Source: Porphyromonadaceae bacterium
GTDB taxonomy: Bacteria; Bacteroidota; Bacteroidia; Bacteroidales; UBA12481
DNA length: 44,082 nucleotides
Assembly: GCA_007280905.1 (NCBI GenBank)
Contig: QYQM01000019.1
Location: 1-44,082, forward strand
Direction of reading: 5' to 3'
The notes beneath the pieces were generated by a model that searched no databases, had not been told where the DNA came from, and was given only the letters and a program-made list of their open reading frames with translations. A program made the position numbers and the translations under genes. Positions 763 through 12,531 of the stretch are shown in pieces. How positions within the stretch are numbered: position 1 is the first letter of the stretch; the number at the start of each line of letters is the position of its first letter.

Positions 763-3700
763 ATGAAGATATCCGGCATTCTGCTTTTTCTCCTAACGGG
801 ATGCCTGATCCATGTGCTGGGCCAGGAAACATTACGTTTCCATCCTGATCCTGCTTTGTTTATTCAGGAAGCCCGTGATTTTTTCGGTAGCCGGCAGCCG
901 GAAGATACACGGGCTATTTTATTGAAATTCGAAACTGCACAAAAGAATGGCCAGCTCGAGAAAAACCACTGGATCGATCTTGCCCGGAAAGCAAATATTC
1001 TCGATAAACTAGGTGCACAGCCATATCCTGATTTCTATAATTTGCTTGAAGCTTTTCTGGAGGTTTCCACCCATACAAAAAACAGGGCGGACTTTCTGCA
1101 ATGGTCGCAATACCTGGATAAGTTGCTCCTGCAGAACCAGAAAAGCCTCATCCAGGCAAAATCATTTCTGGAATTCACGCTGGACTTTTCGCAAAACGGA
1201 ATCCTATTCAAATCAAGCGCCTTTCAATGGAGAGTCGGGCCTGGCCTGAACCAATGCGGAATGGATTCTGCTTTTTATGTTACCATAAATCCCTCCAACC
1301 TGGTTGCCAGCGGCAGTGGAGACAGTACTGTTATATTCTCCACCCGCGGACGTTTCTATCCGGAAACAAATCTGTTTTATGGCGATGGCGGTCAGATTAC
1401 CTGGGAAAGGCTTAATATTCCGGCCGGGCAGGTTTACGTGAAGCTCAACCATTATAAATTGGACCTTTCAAAATCGGCTTATGCGATAGATTCTGTCAAT
1501 CTGGTTGACAAACGCTATTTCACTGAACCGCTGATCGGCCTGATTGAGAACAAAATTCACCCTGGTGTGGCCCCTGAAGTAGCTGGCTATCCCAGATTCA
1601 CCTCGTATGAGCTGCGGAACAGAATTAAGAACATCTATCCGGGTATGGATTATGAAGGGGGTTTTTCCTTGCAAGGGTTAAAAGTTTTAGGCACCGGTCT
1701 TCCATCCCAAAAAAGTGTTCTTTCGGTTTTTAATAACCAAAAGCTATTATTACGATTAGCCTCTACCTATTTTTCCTTCCGGCCTGATCAGGCGCGTGGA
1801 ATTAACACTGAAGCAAGTATTTACCTTGAAACAGATTCCATTTATCATCCTGGGCTATTATTCCAGTATAATGGAAAACAAAAGGAAATATCTCTGATAC
1901 GTGATGGCCAGGGTCTCTCCCCATCCCGCTTTTTGAATACCTATCATGACTTCGATCTGAACGTTGAAATGATAAGGTGGCGTACCGGAGATAATTCTAT
2001 GACCATGACAGGGTTACCCGGAACCACCGAAAACAGGGCATCTTTTGAATCTGCTGACTTTTTTAATATTGACCGGTATAATGAGATACTGATTGCCGAC
2101 AAAATGCACCCGGTAGCGGCAGTGAAACAATGCGCTGATTATTACTATTCCCGAACCTATACCCTTGGCGAACTGGCCAAGTTTATGGAAAAGCCGCAGC
2201 ATCTCGTCGAAGAAATGTTGCTGCGCCTTTCTTTTTTGGGATTTGTCAGGTATAATTCGGAAACCATGATGGTTGAAGTGCAGGAACGTGCTTATGACTT
2301 TCTGAAAAAAAACGCAGGCCTCCAGGATTATGATGTGATCCGGTTCGAATCTGTTCATCAACAACCTCAGGCCAATGCCATTCTAAACCTGGTCGATAAT
2401 CATCTGAAAGTTTTTTGGATCAGATCGATTGAACTCAGCCAAACACGCAGGGTCACCATTTTCCCTGCTAATCAGACCATTGAAATTCTGAAAGGCAGGG
2501 ACATTCTGTTTGATGGCGAAGTCCAGGGAGGCCTGATCCATTTTTTTAGCCAGCAATTCCGCTTTCATTACGATGATTTTTCAATAAGGTTGGGCAAGGT
2601 TGATCAAATCAGGATGCAGGTTTACGAGAAGCTGGCAAAGAAAAACGAGGTGCCATTGCTGGCTAACGTAACTTCAGTGATCGAAAACACCAGGGGTGTA
2701 CTAAAGATCGACGAGCCAACTAATAAATCGGGATTAAAAGTGCAGGAATTTCCGGAATACCCTATTCTGCAGACTGATACCAACGCGTATGTGTATTATG
2801 ATCAAAAGGAAATTCTGAATGGAGTGTATCCACGTAAAACATTCAATTTCAACATATCGCCATTTACCCTGAAGGGTTTAAATGGGTATAGTTTCAGTGA
2901 TTCGCTAATCTTCCCCGGACTGTTTATCACGGCTGATATTTTCCCGCCCCTGGAATTGGCATTACGGCATCAAACCGATCATTCTCTTGGTTTTGAAACG
3001 CTTAAAACCCCTGAGGAAGGTTATCCTGTTTATAAGGGTAAAGGTCAATTTTTCAATAGTATAGCGATGAGCAAAGCCGGACTTAAAGGATCCGGCAGAC
3101 TCGAATATCTCAATTCAACCCTGATTTCAGATGATTTCCTCTTTCTCCCTGATCGGGTGAACACCATGGCTACATTATTTGCTGTAAACAAGGATACCAC
3201 CGCTGCCGGTAATCCGAAAACGAACGGTCAACAGATGTCGGTAAAATGGTATCCCGGGAGTGATAAACTGGTTGCGCAAGGTACCAGGGAGCCACTCAGC
3301 ATGTACGGCAATGGGAAGTTCGACGGCGAGTTATCCCTTGAACCCGGGGCTTTGACCGGAAAAGGCACCATCCGTTTTAACGGCTATTCAATAACATCCA
3401 ATAAATTCAAGTTCTTTCAGGACAGTTATGAATCCCTGGATGGAGTCCTCAGAATCTTTCGGGATTCTACGGCTCAAAAGGCCGATCCAACCCTGGTAAA
3501 TGATTCCAGTAACTTGTTGGTGGCCAGTCAGTTTAATGGATTGGTGGATGTTGGAAACCAAAAAGCGCGATTTGAGCCGGCAGGAAAAGACTCACGTGTT
3601 GAGTTTACACAAAATCGCTTTGAAGGCAAGCCCACTGTGTTTAACTGGGATATTGCAAACGGGCAATTGAACCTTGAGGAAGTGAAATTCAGAATGGCCC

Positions 3701-5214
3701 GGAATCCTTCTGATTCGCTCAATTTCAGATCCGGAATAGCCGATTTTGCAGTAAAAGATCAGTCCATTTTTGCTCATAGCGTTGATTATATCGATGTTGC
3801 AGATGTCCGTGTATTTCCGGCAGACCGGAGCCTGGTGATCAGACAAGATGCAAAAATTGATTCCCTTATGCAGGCAACCATCGTTAGCAGGGACACCACA
3901 CTGGTTCACCGGATAACCAATGCCACCGTGACGATCATTGATCAAAAAAAATATAACGCAAAAGGCTTTTACCAATACCGGGATGTTGCCGGGCGTGATT
4001 TCTTCATCGCCTTCTCAGATATCCAGCCCGACAAAAACGGGATATCTTTTGGGAAAGGAATGATCCCGGTGGAAAATAATTTCAGCCTGAGCCCCGCATT
4101 TAAATATTATGGTTCCGTAGAATGGAACAATAATGAGCGGTTTCTGCTCTTTGACGGACAAACCCAACTCAGCCATGCATGCCCTAACATTACCCTGCAA
4201 TGGATCCGGTTTACCAGCCGGATTTATCCCGGTTCCGTTTCCATTCCGATTGATTCGATCACTACCAACGATCAGAATGAACGATTATTCAAAGGCTTTT
4301 TCCTTTCCAATCAGCCCGTTGAACTTTATTCCACTTTTGTTGGCCCGCATACGCGCTATAGCGATCAACCCCTGATATCTGCTTATGGGTGGTTGTGGTA
4401 TGATGAACCCAAAGGTCAGTACAAGCTGGCCTCTGCAGAGAAAAAAGCTGATCCTGAAGCTGATGGCCCCATGTTATCCCTTGATGCGGATGGATGCCTT
4501 ACAGAAGCGAAGGGGCCCCTGACGCTTGGTGTTGATCTTGGCCAGGTGAAGCTAAACGGAGCTGGCAGGTTGATCCATGATCTCAGGAAAGACAGCGTGA
4601 GGGGGTCGGTTATTCTAACCTTGGATTTCTTTTTTGACCCGAAAATTCTGGATTTCATGACCAAGTCGATCAACAATGCTGCCGGACTTGAACCGGTCAA
4701 CTATAGTGACCCGGCCTTCCGGGATGCCTTTAAAGATCTTCTTGGCAGAACAAAGGGAAAAGAATTGCTTGATCAGATCAGTCTGATTGGAAAGTGGAGA
4801 AAGATACCTGATGAATTGCTTCACACCATGGTTTTTACTGATGTCCGTTTCAAATGGAACCCGGAAACAGGTTCCTATCAATCCACCGGAAAGATCGGGA
4901 TCGGTAATATAATGGGCGAACCGATTAATAAGAAAGTGAATGGTTTCATAGAGATCATGCACCGGAGAGGAGGCGACGCCTTAACTTTATATATTGAGAT
5001 CGACCGGCAGAACTATTTCTTTCTCACCTATTCCCGCGGCGTGATGCAATGTGTTGCCGGACCAGGCTTTGAAAAATTCAATACCATGATCCGAGGCTCA
5101 AGTGAAGCTAACCGAAGACAAAAGACTGCCCCGGGCGAAGCTGAATATCAATACTATATAGGAACATACGCACAGGTGTCGGAGTTTTTGCGGAGATTCA
5201 ATGTAGAGCGGTAA
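763..5214 (+). CDS. Very large exported protein of unknown function
   Basis: I do not recognise a characterised family for this 1483-residue protein. The N-terminus has a signal peptide: a short basic start, a hydrophobic core ending near LIHVLGQ, then polar sequence. An LTGC stretch at residues 11-14 is lipobox-like, so lipoprotein processing is possible. Residues 30-130 look helical; most of the rest alternates short beta-like segments. Around residues 470-520 is a helical stretch resembling a small winged-helix fold. Two segments near residues 765-795 and 855-885 resemble each other, with a GxG followed by beta strands and an aromatic-rich end; this recalls the repetitive beta folds of envelope proteins such as AsmA or OstA types, but that is only an impression. 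It starts 3 bases after tpiA and its last 17 bases overlap a convergent gene. Export is likely; function is unknown. Confidence 0.85.
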   Translation: MKISGILLFLLTGCLIHVLGQETLRFHPDPALFIQEARDFFGSRQPEDTRAILLKFETAQKNGQLEKNHWIDLARKANILDKLGAQPYPDFYNLLEAFLEVSTHTKNRADFLQWSQYLDKLLLQNQKSLIQAKSFLEFTLDFSQNGILFKSSAFQWRVGPGLNQCGMDSAFYVTINPSNLVASGSGDSTVIFSTRGRFYPETNLFYGDGGQITWERLNIPAGQVYVKLNHYKLDLSKSAYAIDSVNLVDKRYFTEPLIGLIENKIHPGVAPEVAGYPRFTSYELRNRIKNIYPGMDYEGGFSLQGLKVLGTGLPSQKSVLSVFNNQKLLLRLASTYFSFRPDQARGINTEASIYLETDSIYHPGLLFQYNGKQKEISLIRDGQGLSPSRFLNTYHDFDLNVEMIRWRTGDNSMTMTGLPGTTENRASFESADFFNIDRYNEILIADKMHPVAAVKQCADYYYSRTYTLGELAKFMEKPQHLVEEMLLRLSFLGFVRYNSETMMVEVQERAYDFLKKNAGLQDYDVIRFESVHQQPQANAILNLVDNHLKVFWIRSIELSQTRRVTIFPANQTIEILKGRDILFDGEVQGGLIHFFSQQFRFHYDDFSIRLGKVDQIRMQVYEKLAKKNEVPLLANVTSVIENTRGVLKIDEPTNKSGLKVQEFPEYPILQTDTNAYVYYDQKEILNGVYPRKTFNFNISPFTLKGLNGYSFSDSLIFPGLFITADIFPPLELALRHQTDHSLGFETLKTPEEGYPVYKGKGQFFNSIAMSKAGLKGSGRLEYLNSTLISDDFLFLPDRVNTMATLFAVNKDTTAAGNPKTNGQQMSVKWYPGSDKLVAQGTREPLSMYGNGKFDGELSLEPGALTGKGTIRFNGYSITSNKFKFFQDSYESLDGVLRIFRDSTAQKADPTLVNDSSNLLVASQFNGLVDVGNQKARFEPAGKDSRVEFTQNRFEGKPTVFNWDIANGQLNLEEVKFRMARNPSDSLNFRSGIADFAVKDQSIFAHSVDYIDVADVRVFPADRSLVIRQDAKIDSLMQATIVSRDTTLVHRITNATVTIIDQKKYNAKGFYQYRDVAGRDFFIAFSDIQPDKNGISFGKGMIPVENNFSLSPAFKYYGSVEWNNNERFLLFDGQTQLSHACPNITLQWIRFTSRIYPGSVSIPIDSITTNDQNERLFKGFFLSNQPVELYSTFVGPHTRYSDQPLISAYGWLWYDEPKGQYKLASAEKKADPEADGPMLSLDADGCLTEAKGPLTLGVDLGQVKLNGAGRLIHDLRKDSVRGSVILTLDFFFDPKILDFMTKSINNAAGLEPVNYSDPAFRDAFKDLLGRTKGKELLDQISLIGKWRKIPDELLHTMVFTDVRFKWNPETGSYQSTGKIGIGNIMGEPINKKVNGFIEIMHRRGGDALTLYIEIDRQNYFFLTYSRGVMQCVAGPGFEKFNTMIRGSSEANRRQKTAPGEAEYQYYIGTYAQVSEFLRRFNVER

Positions 5215-6677: not shown

Positions 6678-7148
6678 ATGTTAGGAAGAACAAGAAATAA
6701 GCGGCAGCTTGATATTTTCGAGGTTCCGATCGAACGGTTTATTAATCGGAATCACGAATTTGCCATCGGAGCAGATCACATTGACTGGGAATCCCTTGAA
6801 GAACATTTCAGACCATTTTACTCCCCCAGGGGACGTCCTTCGATTCCGCCCCGTAAAATCATCGGCATGATCCTCTTAAAAGAGCGATTCAGTCTGAGTG
6901 ATGAAAAAGTATTAAAGATCTGGCCGGAAAATCCGTACTGGCAGTATTTCTGCGGCGAAGTCCATTTCCGGACCGAGAAACCCTTCACAACCAGCGAACT
7001 CACAAGCTTTCGGCGCAGGATAGGACCAGCGGGCATTGAAATGATCAGGAATATCACGATAAAGGAATTCGGTAATCCAGACGGAAAGAAGTACAAATCC
7101 TACTCGGATAGACGGAAACGAAACTTTTGGAAGCGCATAATAGGTTAA
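6678..7148 (+). pseudogene. IS5/IS1182-type transposase, N-terminal remnant
   Basis: The 156-residue frame resembles the N-terminal DUF772-type domain of IS5/IS1182 family transposases: an R-rich start, the segment GRPSIPPRKIIGMILLKERFSLSDE, and later FTTSELTSFRRRIG. Full transposases of this group continue for several hundred residues with a DDE catalytic domain. Here the frame stops after a lysine/arginine-rich tail and no DDE region follows, because the next gene begins within 40 bases. No terminal inverted repeats were found around it. It is best read as a decayed insertion-sequence fragment. Domestication as a DNA-binding protein is possible but unsupported. Confidence 0.75.
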
Positions 7149-7186: not shown

Positions 7187-8692
7187 ATGGCACGTTTGTG
7201 GTTATATTTCCTTCTCAGTGTGATGCCCGTATCGGGTATAAATCAGGTATCTATGCAATCGAACAAAAAAGATAGGCAGCCTGCGGTAGCTGGATCATTT
7301 TATCCATCTGATGCTGCCGGGTTAAAGAAAATGATTTCCGGTTTCATGGCATCCGCAAAGCCAGATCAAACAACCGGGCTGGTAAGGGCAATTGTGGTTC
7401 CCCATGCAGGCTATGTTTTTTCGGGAGGGGTGGCCGCATCCGGCTATAATCAACTGAACCCGGATCAGGTTTACAAAAGGGTTTTTATCCTGGCCTCATC
7501 GCACCGCTTCAGTTTTGGAAAGGCGTCGGTTTACACACAAGGTGATTATATTACCCCGTTAGGCCGTGTACCGGTTGATACCGAAATTGCAAATGAACTG
7601 ATCAGAAATTCCGAGGCATTCACCGATTATCCCGAGGCTCATATCACCGAACATAGCATTGAAGTGCAGCTGCCGTTTTTACAAACCCGGCTGAAATACC
7701 CGTTCAAGATCGTTCCCATTGTTTTGGGAACCCAGGTGCCGGCAGTTTGTGAACATATTGCTGATGCCCTTAAACCTTATTTTAACAGCGAAAACCTGTT
7801 TGTGATCAGTGCTGATTTTTCGCATTATCCTGCTTATGAAGATGCTGTGAAGGTTGACGACATCACGGCAAAAGCCTTCTGCACCAATTCACCTACCGAG
7901 TTTATTAATGCCATCCGCAACAATGATAAACTCCGGATACCCGAACTGGCTACCAGCATGTGCGCCTGGCCCTCCGGACTCACCTTGCTTTATCTTACTC
8001 AGGGAAACAACACCCTGTTGTTCAATAAGATTGATTACAAAAACTCGGGCGACATCAAACCGTATGGCGATAAAGCCAGTGTGGTTGGTTACCATGCTAT
8101 TTGTATCTCTGAGTCAAAGACATCAGGTTTCGAATTAACCGATGCAGATAAGCACGAATTGATGCGTATTGCCCGGAGCACGTTAGATTCCTATATAAGA
8201 AACCGAACAATACCTCCATTAAATTCAACCGGATACAGTGAAAATCTCAAAATGAAGGCAGGTGCCTTCGTAACTTTAACAATCGATGGCAACCTTCGGG
8301 GGTGTATCGGGTCATTTGAACCTGATATCCCGCTTTACAAGGTTATCCAGGAGATGGCTATAGCTGCTTCCACTCAGGACAACCGGTTTCAGCCCGTAAA
8401 AGTTCAGGAGATCGAGTCTATCCATGTTGAAATATCGGTTTTAACCCCGATGCATAAGATAAAGAATATCAGTGAAATCCAATTGGGCAAAAATGGAATC
8501 TATATAAAAAAAGGGGTTCAGGGCGGAACATTTTTACCGCAGGTAGCTACCGATACCGGCTGGACACTGGATGAATTTCTGGGCCACTGTGCGCGGGACA
8601 AGGCCGGGATCGGCTGGACCGGCTGGAAGGATGCTGATATCTATATATATGAGGCTCTTATCTTTGAGGAGGATATCCCAAAGAAAAAATGA
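7187..8692 (+). CDS. AmmeMemoRadiSam proteins B and A fused (MEMO-AMMECR1)
   Basis: This 501-residue protein joins two domains of the AmmeMemoRadiSam set, whose biochemical role is not established. Residues about 30-305 are MEMO-like, related to extradiol dioxygenases, with the conserved His73 (VPHAGYVFSG), His106 (SSHRFSF), His213 (DFSHYP) and Cys259 (TSMCAWPSG). Residues about 320-495 are AMMECR1-like, with the signature LRGCIGSFEP at 370-379. The first 20 residues are hydrophobic (WLYFLLSVMPVSG), which could be a signal peptide; an internal ATG at 7253 would give a cytosolic protein starting MQSNKKDRQPAVAGSFYP. The stop codon overlaps the next start (ATGA), so the pair is probably translationally coupled. 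Domain calls are strong; the start and localisation are uncertain. Confidence 0.93.
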   Translation: MARLWLYFLLSVMPVSGINQVSMQSNKKDRQPAVAGSFYPSDAAGLKKMISGFMASAKPDQTTGLVRAIVVPHAGYVFSGGVAASGYNQLNPDQVYKRVFILASSHRFSFGKASVYTQGDYITPLGRVPVDTEIANELIRNSEAFTDYPEAHITEHSIEVQLPFLQTRLKYPFKIVPIVLGTQVPAVCEHIADALKPYFNSENLFVISADFSHYPAYEDAVKVDDITAKAFCTNSPTEFINAIRNNDKLRIPELATSMCAWPSGLTLLYLTQGNNTLLFNKIDYKNSGDIKPYGDKASVVGYHAICISESKTSGFELTDADKHELMRIARSTLDSYIRNRTIPPLNSTGYSENLKMKAGAFVTLTIDGNLRGCIGSFEPDIPLYKVIQEMAIAASTQDNRFQPVKVQEIESIHVEISVLTPMHKIKNISEIQLGKNGIYIKKGVQGGTFLPQVATDTGWTLDEFLGHCARDKAGIGWTGWKDADIYIYEALIFEEDIPKKK

Positions 8693-11070
8693 ATGCGCCT
8701 TATTTACTGATTCCAATCGAACTGATATTGCTGATCCTTTATGGTATCAGCCTGCTATTCAGCCGGTTGGACATAATAAGCAAATCCATCCACCGGAAAA
8801 TATGGAATTATAGTCTCCTGGCCACTTTTCTCGTAGCTGCCATTCTCGGAACCCTGATGGCTGTGCAAATCAATTATAAGATGGAGGTTCCCTGGACTGA
8901 AAAAGTTCTTAAATGGCACGTCAATTTTGGCATTGCTTTATCACTTATCGGGGTATTTCATCTGCTGTGGAATTGGCGGTATTATTTTCCGGTAAAATCG
9001 GCAGGTCGCAAAAGAGGGAGGACTCAAAGATCCTTCCCTTCAGGCGTATCCGCGGGGAAAATATTCCGGACGGGAGTACCCGCGGGTCCTCCCCTACTAT
9101 TTTTAATTGGGTTTTGCGGCATTGCTTTTCAAACATTTATGATCAGGGAATTACTCGCATTGTTCCAGGGAAACGAACTTATGTTATCACTGATCCTATT
9201 TCTGTGGTTACTGATCACCGGAACCGGAGCCCTAACCGGCAATCGTGCCGGGGCTATTATCAGCACAGAACCCCGGGAGAACCGGCGTAAATCTTTTCTT
9301 CTCGTTCTCACCCTTATCATTCTTCCATTCTTCTCGATTCCGTTAATGTATTATTGCAAAAGCCTGTTTTTTGCTCCCGGGATCGAAGCGGGTCCGGTGG
9401 CTTTTACGGGCTTTCTGCTTTTGATCCTGGCCCCTTTCTGCTTCCTGAATGGTTTCGCCTTTACTTTCATTACCAGATTATTACAGTCCTCAGGGCTGAA
9501 CATCAGAAAAGCCTATGCCTGGGAGAGTATGGGGGGTGCTACCGCAGGACTTATTTGCACACTTGCAATCCTGACCGGTATTCTGACACCACCTGCCGGC
9601 CGATGGATTGAGAAGTTATTTCATCCCAATGAAGAGATAATTGCCACCAGATCGGGCTCATCCGGCCGATTGACAATCACCAGGAGCGGCGATCAGGTGA
9701 ATATTTTCGAAAATGGCATTCTCTCCCAATCTTCAGGAAACACCCTGGTATGTGAGGAGATGGCCCATTTTGCCATGATACAGAATCCGAACCCCCGAAA
9801 TGTTCTGGTTATCGGAGGATTGCTTTCGGGTATCCATCAGGAATTGGCTAAATATCCCTGCAATCGCATTGATTTGGCGGAGCCGGATCCGCAAATTTTC
9901 AGGTTGGCCAAACGTCTTAACCTGATTCAGGAATCGATCCCGCCCTTTCGATATATCAGAAAAACACTATCAGCCTGGATCAATCATTCAGATATTCAAT
10001 ATGATATCATCCTTGTGATGCTTCCCGGCCCGCAAAATCTGAGTTTGAACCGGTTCTATACCGCTGAATTCTTCCATCGCCTGAAAAACTGCCTGGCTCC
10101 GGGCGGGATAGTCTCAGTAATGCTGCCTGGAACAGCTAATTACGTTTCAGGAGAAGCCATCGCCGCTATCGGTCCGGTTATCAATGCCATGCGGACATCC
10201 TTCAGCCGGTCCCTCCTTTTTCCCGGCGAGAACAATTACCTGATTGGAGGAAGTACCCTACTCAGCACGGATATTTTATCAGAATTGAAATCCAGAAACA
10301 TTCAGACACTTTATGTTTCCGATGGTTATTTTGATGAAGATCTGTTAAAAGCCCGAATGGAAGAGATCAACCGGGTTATGGGATCAGAACCTGCTATTAA
10401 TACCGATCTTAAACCCAGAGCCTATTTCGGGCAGATCGCCTGGTGGCTGGGGCATTTTCCGGTGCGGATATTATGGCCGCTGGTTGCGATTCTGGCTATG
10501 CTTGTGGTCAGCGGCCTGGTTTCCGGCCGCTCCGCATTCAGCGGCATGTTTATTATGGGTGCCGGTGCTTCGGGGATAGAGATCATTCTGCTTTTTCTTA
10601 TCCAGATTACAGTTGGGTCACTTTATCTGTTCACCGGGCTCCTGCTGGCTTCCTTTATGGCAGGCCTCGCCCTTGGCAGCATCCGAACATTCAGCGGCAT
10701 ACCCGGCAAACTTGCCTCAAGCAGCACCTTTATCCTCCTGGCATTCACGATGGTCACTGCATTGTTAGCAGGACTTGCAATCTGGATGACCAAATCAGGC
10801 AATCTAATCCTGATCAAAACAGCATTGATTATAATACTAACCTTTGTCTCAGCCCTGCTCACGGGACTTTTTTTCGCCTATCTCACGAGTATCCTGCCCG
10901 ATCCAAGATCGAACGGACAGCTATATGTTTATGATCTGATGGGTGCTGCGTTCGGCGCACTGGTGTATCCGATGGTAGTTATACCGATATTTGGCCTTCT
11001 GCCGGCTATCGGTATCATTTCCGGTTCAGGAATATTAATTTTGGTCTTGTTAAAATCCGGACTGAAATGA
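8689..11070 (+). CDS. Polytopic membrane protein with degenerate spermidine-synthase-like domain
   Basis: A 793-residue membrane protein. Three hydrophobic helices lie within residues 1-100, then a basic loop, five or so helices at about 125-300, a soluble domain at about 310-570, and a second helix bundle to the end. The soluble domain resembles the spermidine synthase Rossmann fold: a nucleotide-loop region IGGLLSG, an acidic strand end AEPDP, and YDIILVMLPGPQ followed by FYTAEFFHRLK. Active aminopropyltransferases have a GGGDG-type loop and an Asp after the YDvIivD strand; both are altered here, so polyamine synthesis is doubtful. It sits between the MEMO-AMMECR1 fusion (4-base overlap) and the radical SAM gene, so it probably works with them. 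Architecture is clear; the reaction is unknown. Confidence 0.88.
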   Translation: MNAPYLLIPIELILLILYGISLLFSRLDIISKSIHRKIWNYSLLATFLVAAILGTLMAVQINYKMEVPWTEKVLKWHVNFGIALSLIGVFHLLWNWRYYFPVKSAGRKRGRTQRSFPSGVSAGKIFRTGVPAGPPLLFLIGFCGIAFQTFMIRELLALFQGNELMLSLILFLWLLITGTGALTGNRAGAIISTEPRENRRKSFLLVLTLIILPFFSIPLMYYCKSLFFAPGIEAGPVAFTGFLLLILAPFCFLNGFAFTFITRLLQSSGLNIRKAYAWESMGGATAGLICTLAILTGILTPPAGRWIEKLFHPNEEIIATRSGSSGRLTITRSGDQVNIFENGILSQSSGNTLVCEEMAHFAMIQNPNPRNVLVIGGLLSGIHQELAKYPCNRIDLAEPDPQIFRLAKRLNLIQESIPPFRYIRKTLSAWINHSDIQYDIILVMLPGPQNLSLNRFYTAEFFHRLKNCLAPGGIVSVMLPGTANYVSGEAIAAIGPVINAMRTSFSRSLLFPGENNYLIGGSTLLSTDILSELKSRNIQTLYVSDGYFDEDLLKARMEEINRVMGSEPAINTDLKPRAYFGQIAWWLGHFPVRILWPLVAILAMLVVSGLVSGRSAFSGMFIMGAGASGIEIILLFLIQITVGSLYLFTGLLLASFMAGLALGSIRTFSGIPGKLASSSTFILLAFTMVTALLAGLAIWMTKSGNLILIKTALIIILTFVSALLTGLFFAYLTSILPDPRSNGQLYVYDLMGAAFGALVYPMVVIPIFGLLPAIGIISGSGILILVLLKSGLK

Positions 11071-11085
11071 CGTGCGGGATGTCAG

Positions 11086-12213
11086 ATGAATAAAAGAGAA
11101 TTTTTAAAAAATGCAGCTACGGCAGGAATTTCGACCTGTTTGTACGGCATATATGGTTTTGGAAATAAAACATTAAACACGATGAATGAGCAAAATAATA
11201 CGAAGCCTGGTGAACTTGAAGCCAGACATTACATTGAAACACCAAGAGGGATAAAATGCCTGATTTGTCCGAATGAATGTACCCTCAAGGAGGGGGAACT
11301 GAGTGTTTGCCATAACCGGATCGCACGCGATGGCAAGCTTTATACCATGTCATACGGAAATCCCTGTGCGATCCATATGGATCCTGTTGAGAAAAAACCA
11401 TTGCTTCATTTTCTGCCGGGATCGCTAACCTTTAGTATAGCGACTGCCGGGTGCAACTTTGCCTGCCTCAACTGTCAGAACTGGGAGATTAGCCAAACCA
11501 GCCCAACCCAAACCCGCAACTTCGATGCAAATCCCGAGACGGTTGTTAACCAGGCTATCCGGGAACAATGTAAATCGATAGCCTATACCTATTCCGAGCC
11601 CATTACTTTTTTCGAATATATGATCGATACGGCAACACTGGCCAAAAGTCGGGGGGTAAAGAATATCATGGTTTCAAATGGTTATATTAATCAGGAGCCT
11701 CTGCTTGAATTATGCAAAGTAATTGACGCTGCGAATATTGATCTGAAGACTTTTGATCCGGTGACTCATTTAAAGCTAACGGCCGGTAATCTGAAACCCG
11801 TGCTCGAAACGCTGAAAACGTTTAAAGACCAGGGAGTCTGGCTTGAGATCACCAATCTGCTCATTCCCGACTGGACAGACAATTTCGACCAGATAACCAA
11901 AATGTGCGATTGGTTGGCAAAGGAAGGATTTACAGATTATCCGCTGCATTTCAGCCGGTTTCATCCACAGCACAAACTAACCCGTTTGCCCGCAACACCG
12001 CTCCAGGCACTCACGCGTGCCAAGGATATTGCCTTGAAAGCAGGACTGAAATTTGTGTACATCGGTAATGTACCGGGCATTGGCGGCGAGGATACCTATT
12101 GTCCGAATTGTAAAGTCCTTTTAGTCAAGCGCAAAGGATTTGAAATCGAACAAAACCTGATTGCCGGCAATCGATGCCCCAAGTGCCAGACCACAGTGGC
12201 AGGGAGGTGGTGA
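11086..12213 (+). CDS. amrS: AmmeMemoRadiSam system radical SAM enzyme
   Basis: A radical SAM protein of the AmmeMemoRadiSam type, related to pyruvate formate-lyase activating enzymes. The cluster-binding motif is C123-X3-C127-X2-C130 in GCNFACLNCQNW. Four further cysteines precede it (CLICPNEC and SVC, residues 58-75), and two CxxC pairs lie at the C-terminus (CPNC, CPKC), as usual for this group. The N-terminus, MNKREFLKNAATAGIS, resembles a twin-arginine signal with KR instead of RR, followed by a weakly hydrophobic stretch, so the enzyme may be exported or carry a vestigial leader. It follows the membrane protein by 15 bases, consistent with one operon. The substrate is unknown. Confidence 0.93.
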   Translation: MNKREFLKNAATAGISTCLYGIYGFGNKTLNTMNEQNNTKPGELEARHYIETPRGIKCLICPNECTLKEGELSVCHNRIARDGKLYTMSYGNPCAIHMDPVEKKPLLHFLPGSLTFSIATAGCNFACLNCQNWEISQTSPTQTRNFDANPETVVNQAIREQCKSIAYTYSEPITFFEYMIDTATLAKSRGVKNIMVSNGYINQEPLLELCKVIDAANIDLKTFDPVTHLKLTAGNLKPVLETLKTFKDQGVWLEITNLLIPDWTDNFDQITKMCDWLAKEGFTDYPLHFSRFHPQHKLTRLPATPLQALTRAKDIALKAGLKFVYIGNVPGIGGEDTYCPNCKVLLVKRKGFEIEQNLIAGNRCPKCQTTVAGRW

Positions 12214-12405
12214 GAGGCTGTCGGTTGCAGGTTGCAGGTTGTTAGGTTGTTGTGATTGTTATGATGGTTGTGGTGGTTGTGATGGTTGTGATGGTTGTGG
12301 GTTGTGAGTTGTCGGTTATCGGTTAGGTCGCAACTTGCATCTTGCAACAATCATAACAATCATAACAATCATAACAACCATAACTCACAACCGACAACCG
12401 GCATT
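12214..12405. repeat. Strand-asymmetric simple-repeat spacer with inverted halves
   Basis: The left half (about 12219-12335) is almost free of A+C runs and consists of short GTTGTGATG/GGTTGT-like units. The right half (about 12340-12400) consists of complementary AACAATCAT units. Outer words match as inverted copies: GTTGTGAGTT with AACTCACAAC, and GTCGGTT with AACCGAC. Folded RNA or single-stranded DNA could form an imperfect long hairpin. It fills the gap between amrS and nuoA and could weaken read-through, but there is no classic terminator U-tract. The minus-strand frame across it, rich in His and Asn, is an artefact of the repeat. Confidence 0.75.
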
Positions 12406-12531
12406 GACATAAATCACTTATTTAACGATGTACATCAGTTTTTCCATGACAAATGATATCCGAAGGTATTTCTATATCTACATCCATATATATCGGAAAA
12501 TTCTACTTTTGCCTGATAATTTTCTAACACT
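12406..12531 (+). promoter_or_regulatory. Probable nuo operon promoter region
   Basis: This AT-rich spacer precedes nuoA. TACTTTTG at 12504-12511 matches the Bacteroidota -7 consensus TAnnTTTG, and its end is 20 bases from the nuoA ATG at 12532. No convincing TTTG -33 box was located. There is no Shine-Dalgarno sequence before nuoA, which is common in this phylum. Position and motif support a promoter here; the exact start is not visible. Confidence 0.42.

Follow-up and report, generated by a model that had tools for sequence, protein, structure and literature searches.

The window analysed here is a stretch of 44,082 bases (positions 1-44,082, forward strand) of contig QYQM01000019.1 in assembly GCA_007280905.1, from a Porphyromonadaceae bacterium, and it contains a compact cluster of three genes, all on the plus strand. 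The first gene (7187..8692) encodes a MEMO-AMMECR1 fusion of 501 aa that matches PF01875, PF01871, TIGR04336 (233 bits, cut-off 26) and TIGR04335 (161 bits, cut-off 99) above the respective cut-offs. In this protein, a signal-like N-terminus (7187-7250; MARLWLYFLLSVMPVSGINQV) is followed by the MEMO domain (7277-8098; PF01875, E 1.2e-55) and, C-terminal to it, the AMMECR1 domain (8165-8662; PF01871, E 2.6e-49). The second gene (8689..11070), which overlaps the first by 4 bases (ATGA), encodes a membrane protein of 793 aa composed of a three-helix N-terminal extension with conserved His residues (8689..9018), an N-terminal MFS-like half (9085..9588), a spermidine-synthase-like domain predicted to be extracytoplasmic (9622..10458) and a C-terminal MFS-like half with one preceding helix (10471..11067). 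The third gene, separated from the second by 15 bases, encodes AmrS (11086..12213; 375 aa), the AmmeMemoRadiSam radical SAM enzyme (TIGR04337, 359 bits, cut-off 220), with a Tat-like leader (11086..11175; MNKREFLKNAATAGISTCLYGIYGFG), an intact CX3CX2C motif (11452-11475) and additional C-terminal CxxC pairs. The ORF coordinates and the Pfam and TIGR matches thus confirm the three overlapping or closely spaced genes of the original prediction, which had missed the export leaders on the first and third proteins, the MFS-like repeat and the N-terminal His helices. All three genes recur in the same setting in a second species (L240) of this genus, and their arrangement is also found in a distant member of the phylum (L064), in which the membrane protein is approximately 31% identical.

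Downstream of the cluster, the complex I (nuo) operon begins, and the intervening positions 12214-12410 hold a repetitive GTTGT-rich stretch followed by what appears by eye to be its rough complement, possibly forming a long hairpin. Directly upstream of the MEMO-AMMECR1 gene lies an ORF of 156 aa with a DUF772 (transposase N-terminal) domain (6678-7148), whose counterpart in the second species (L240, 10202-10672) is of equal length, shares 73% identity and overlaps the MEMO-AMMECR1 start there by 4 bases; this ORF is possibly domesticated. Further upstream, positions 763-5214 encode a protein of 1483 aa whose N-terminus is signal-like and for which Pfam gave no match.

The membrane gene had been proposed as a true fourth component of the AmmeMemoRadiSam set, with a survey of its proximity to amrS as the suggested check. 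In a sample of 296 genomes spread over the phylum, seven genomes, including that of the window, carry a full-length relative, and all seven copies adjoin amrS or lie within approximately 1.7 kb of it (in G097, amrS is cut by a contig end). Among 149 evenly sampled genomes of the window's order, 29 of the 37 copies of the membrane gene, some of which are split by contig ends, are located within approximately 4 kb of amrS. An AmrS scoring above the cut-off is encoded in 36 of the 37 genomes with the membrane gene versus 37 of the 112 others, and the co-occurrence across the 149 genomes (Fisher p = 5e-13) excludes a chance association. Six of the eight copies positioned away from amrS lie beside a MEMO-AMMECR1 gene; seven of these eight genomes have amrS elsewhere, and all seven encode an AmrS with a Tat-like leader. 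In 149 genomes, again evenly sampled, of the class to which G120 belongs, 19 of 22 copies are found beside amrS, while one more (G519) abuts an AMMECR1 gene.

A scan of genome contigs yielded 80 loci, out of at least 550 relatives, and extended the linkage to Bacteroidota, Ignavibacteria, Planctomycetes, Verrucomicrobia, Deltaproteobacteria, Omnitrophota, Chloroflexi, Acidobacteria and archaeal-titled MAGs, the titles of MAGs possibly reflecting binning errors. At least one partner, amrS or MEMO-AMMECR1, is present near the membrane gene in 68 of the 80 loci, and in 33 of the 37 loci for which 5 kb of sequence is available on both sides; the median gap between the membrane gene and amrS is 51 bases. 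No partner was seen within the DNA covered in 12 loci, eight of which are cut by contig ends. The gene order and strand of the cluster vary between loci, which favours functional linkage over inherited order. The membrane gene is therefore not confined to the neighbourhood of amrS in this genome and its close relatives; it is a recurring partner in many bacterial phyla, and its status as a genuine fourth component is supported.

Clustering of the neighbours of 85 loci and of part of the window revealed no further widely conserved component, and the largest neighbour cluster (nine loci) comprises kinase- and response-regulator-like proteins. Tandem amrS genes occur beside the membrane gene at L241 (G333:C75), L242 (G440:C48) and L265 (G308:C110); in G308, a leaderless and a Tat-type amrS are adjacent. 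Two genomes (G430 and G365) encode a leader-bearing AmrS and yield no membrane-gene match, so the membrane protein is either dispensable or replaceable. In a member of the same family (L239, G430:C53), a MEMO-AMMECR1 gene and a Tat-type amrS, with no membrane gene, adjoin an operon for a Tat-type molybdopterin oxidoreductase and NrfD, along with sulphur-transport genes.

The AlphaFold model of the window's membrane protein (mean pLDDT 84.7) has its best PDB matches among spermidine synthases (1uir and others). The two membrane halves of the protein share homology (hhalign, 98%), and the model of the C-terminal half of a relative (pLDDT 93.5), the counterpart of that half in the window, shows one leading helix followed by six more. 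The listed fold matches of this half are nearly all MFS transporters, although no match reaches significance (best E 0.03), and a Pfam search of the membrane protein returned no match to an MFS family. Taken together, hhalign, the helices and the loop charges indicate two homologous six-helix halves with both termini inside, as in the MFS, and the protein looks like two MFS-like halves built around a spermidine-synthase-like domain. The window copy does not contain the canonical helix 6-7 segment (profile gap at 173-213, shared with G317), and since two helices are lost, the topology would be kept. In a canonical member, the average K+R content of the short loops sums to approximately 19.7 for the loops assigned as inside and to 1.7 for those assigned as outside, one spurious hydrophobic peak within the soluble domain having been ignored. 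This distribution places the soluble domain outside, so that it is predicted to face the exterior of the cytoplasmic membrane. In the window and in a subset of Bacteroidales, three extra helices precede the core, and an alignment of the extended copies reveals the conserved His motifs HRKxWN, WHVxFG and FHxxW. These helices match DUF4405 weakly in Pfam (E 0.0046, below the cut-off), and the extension may possibly be a haem b domain that serves electron input.

The soluble domain, matched by PF01564 (Spermine_synth; E 2.6e-12) at residues 355-476, lies between the hydrophobic halves. Its active-site columns were assigned by alignment with SpeE, and the Glu, Asp and acid residues are named by their roles in that enzyme. 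In the 85 copies listed, the position of the amine-binding acid of the GGGDG/GGGEG motif is occupied by V, I, L, M, A, F or W; among 86 copies, the column of the catalytic Asp holds D 33 times, N 33 times and A 13 times. Given the loss of the amine-binding acid and, mostly, of the catalytic Asp, the domain is likely no aminopropyltransferase, and the proposal that it might lend the set a spermidine-synthase-type amine chemistry is not supported. The ribose-contacting Glu is kept in 82 of 86 copies and the adenine-contacting Asp in 85 of 86, and on these residues the domain probably binds an adenosyl compound in most species, while aminopropyl transfer is unlikely. The window copy has L379 at the position of the amine-binding acid and M444 at that of the catalytic Asp, and thus does not have an aminopropyltransferase site. 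The adenine-contacting Asp is missing from this copy as well, and its glycine loop is partly lost; these alterations, found in both species of the genus, count against tight nucleoside binding there. Between the two species, the membrane protein is 50% identical, MEMO-AMMECR1 68% and AmrS 80%, with dN/dS saturated for all three genes.

The AmrS proteins encoded near the membrane gene differ from the others at their N-termini. Under a rule devised for this analysis, which requires a twin basic motif and, after it, a hydrophobic stretch free of charged residues, a Tat-like leader is present in 63 of the 65 linked AmrS sequences scored (one further sequence was left out) versus none of 63 unlinked ones. 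These counts were obtained with a wider cysteine motif and a slightly relaxed leader rule; the first count, under a slightly stricter rule that 0.6% of shuffled leaders passed, extended into the protein body where the narrower cysteine motif went unrecognised and gave 53/66 and 5/63. Of the two leader-negative linked sequences, one (L127) is a second AmrS, leaderless, from a locus where a Tat-type copy is also encoded, and the other (L078; MNDRTPLNKREFLKLCLLGGCSLAL) has a similar leader by eye. A median of 76.5 residues precedes the first cysteine motif in linked AmrS compared with 20 in unlinked AmrS, the leader lengths being upper bounds because they derive from the longest ORFs. The unlinked set represents the phylum sample and the linked set is taxonomically wider; in the unrooted AmrS tree, used because midpoint rooting was uninformative, 65 of 66 linked sequences fall on one side of a split, with no more than one or two unlinked ones among them (local support 0.84 to 0.965). 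The leader contrast is therefore partly one of clade. The best natural control is provided by two genomes of the window's order (G318 and G324), in which a fused MEMO-AMMECR1 gene lies beside an amrS whose product falls in the same score range, with no membrane gene, and neither protein carries a leader; a third genome (G431) is similar with respect to MEMO-AMMECR1, its AmrS start being uncertain.

The window's AmrS leader contains KREFLK, with KR rather than RR, followed by a weakly hydrophobic stretch; KR is the Bacteroidales form, whereas RR prevails in most other phyla. The sequence features of a Tat substrate are nevertheless all found, namely the twin basic motif, the hydrophobic stretch and a tatC gene in the genome (G000:C135). 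At four archaeal-titled loci (L079, L081, L089 and L132), tatC lies within a few kb of the cluster. Five linked AmrS proteins from two phyla (L136, L137, L149, L067 and L068) carry a CxxCH motif after the Tat-like leader and before the radical SAM core. Motifs of this kind hold c-type haem, whose attachment takes place outside the cytoplasm, and the one in AmrS is possibly such a site, though it could be another metal site.

The MEMO-AMMECR1 proteins follow the same trend. A signal-like stretch, either a Sec or a lipoprotein leader, is present in 46 of 51 linked MEMO proteins versus none of 17 unlinked ones, and 25 of these 46 contain a lipobox-like motif. The membrane location that had been suggested for the set is thus supported more strongly than proposed, as every component looks exported. 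Human MEMO1 binds iron via H49, H81 and C244 (PMC11081632). In the window protein, H73, H106, H213 and C259 occupy conserved columns and, judging by motif, may be the equivalents of the iron ligands of human MEMO1.

The linkage, the leaders restricted to linked proteins, the tatC genes, the loop charges, the MFS-like repeat, the kept adenosine contacts and the CxxCH motifs support an extracytoplasmic AmmeMemoRadiSam set of four domains with a dedicated membrane partner, to which a probability of roughly 0.7 is assigned. AmrS would be exported folded via Tat and the MEMO-AMMECR1 fusion via Sec, often becoming lipid-anchored, while the MFS-like transporter core would hold a nucleoside-binding, spermidine-synthase-like domain on the outside of the cytoplasmic membrane, where the catalytic domains would meet. 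The membrane protein might deliver or hold SAM, a small-molecule substrate or a product outside; AmrS would cleave SAM there and generate a radical on either MEMO-AMMECR1 or its substrate, and the MEMO metal site would perform a coupled step. The actual localisation, the transported molecule and the reaction are in each case what we infer from these features. SAM is attractive as the cargo, since a radical SAM enzyme that is exported would depend on it and the adenosine-contacting residues are kept; even so, its supply by the membrane protein is a tentative suggestion, and transport of a substrate or product instead is about equally likely. Similarly speculative is the fullest version of the scheme, in which radical SAM catalysis would proceed outside the cytoplasm in many phyla, with the MFS/spermidine-synthase-like subunit exporting or presenting SAM and haem motifs of AmrS or the membrane protein providing electron input. 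An argument against an exported set is the dependence of radical SAM enzymes on SAM and a strong reductant, neither of which is known outside the cytoplasm; it is joined by the KR leaders, the two genomes with a leader-bearing AmrS and no membrane gene, the window's lost Asp and glycine loop and the weak MFS fold matches.

Alternatively, the leaders could be only membrane anchors, with the set working on the cytoplasmic face of the membrane and having ordinary access to SAM and reductant, given that SAM and low-potential electrons are cytoplasmic and that KR-type motifs are weaker Tat signals. However, the lipobox-like motifs of MEMO-AMMECR1, loop charges that place the soluble domain outside, RR-type leaders in most other phyla, tatC neighbours and CxxCH motifs on AmrS all speak against this explanation, which is considered rather improbable. 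The set could also be exported with the spermidine-synthase-like domain being an active enzyme that transfers aminopropyl, methyl or similar groups to a small amine or to the product of AmrS. The fold, the kept adenosine-contacting residues and the catalytic Asp of 33 of the 86 copies are compatible with such activity, but none of the 85 copies listed has the amine-binding acid, 46 of 86 have N or A in place of the catalytic Asp, and the window's copy departs even further, making a transferase improbable. That the membrane gene is merely an unrelated neighbour, linked by chance or inherited order, could draw on the 12 loci with no partner in the DNA covered, yet eight of these are truncated by contig ends, and the surveys, with their co-occurrence statistics and shuffled linkage across many phyla, refute it; its probability is practically negligible. 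The exported set with a dedicated membrane partner is thus the preferred interpretation.

Conservation of MEMO and AMMECR1 extends from archaea to humans, and no reaction is established for either or for the AmmeMemoRadiSam family. Burroughs et al. reportedly extended the known gene contexts of Memo in 2019. Memo-AMMECR1-radical SAM systems were described in that work, as cited in PMC7159879. A review that cites it makes, in the passages found, no mention of such a membrane partner, although the membrane gene may have been mentioned in the 2019 paper itself. The lists and passages searched for exported radical SAM enzymes contained no report of one. A role in defence was also considered and set aside, as only marginal viperin and mad2 matches were obtained, which are explained by the shared radical SAM and Rossmann folds. 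With MEMO, AMMECR1, AmrS and a transporter-like protein brought into one compartment by a widespread set, the search can concentrate on extracytoplasmic substrates that face the membrane, and single genes become available for deletion and assay. If the interpretation is correct, an exported AmrS, very unusual for a radical SAM enzyme, would overturn the view that such chemistry occurs only in the cytoplasm, and SAM and an electron source would have to be present outside it.

Compared with known systems, the cluster is closest to AmmeMemoRadiSam (TIGR04335, TIGR04336 and TIGR04337), all three protein types of which score over the curated cut-offs, but it differs in the fused MEMO and AMMECR1 with a signal-like leader, in the Tat-like AmrS leader and in the linked membrane partner; unlinked AmrS proteins of the same phylum have neither the leader nor the membrane-partner features. 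Human MEMO1 and AMMECR1 have homologous domains but are separate proteins and are not known to be exported. SpeE (TIGR00417; PDB 1uir, 3anx and 1inl) shares the fold of the soluble domain (target TM-score 0.66-0.69), whereas the window protein, which scores 43 bits on TIGR00417 (cut-off 249.55), is membrane-embedded, with its domain predicted outside and the amine-binding acid and, mostly, the catalytic Asp lost. MFS-like helices are likewise combined with a spermidine-synthase-like domain in NF037959 (fused MFS/spermidine synthase) and NF002956 (PRK03612, membrane polyamine aminopropyltransferase), which are matched at E <= 1e-5 by 38 and 45 of 45 relatives, respectively; for the window protein, NF002956 gives 69 bits (cut-off 472) and NF037959 no match at 1e-5. 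From both of these families, the membrane partner is distinguished by the two six-helix halves that flank its domain, by the loss of the aminopropyl site and by a gene that travels with amrS.
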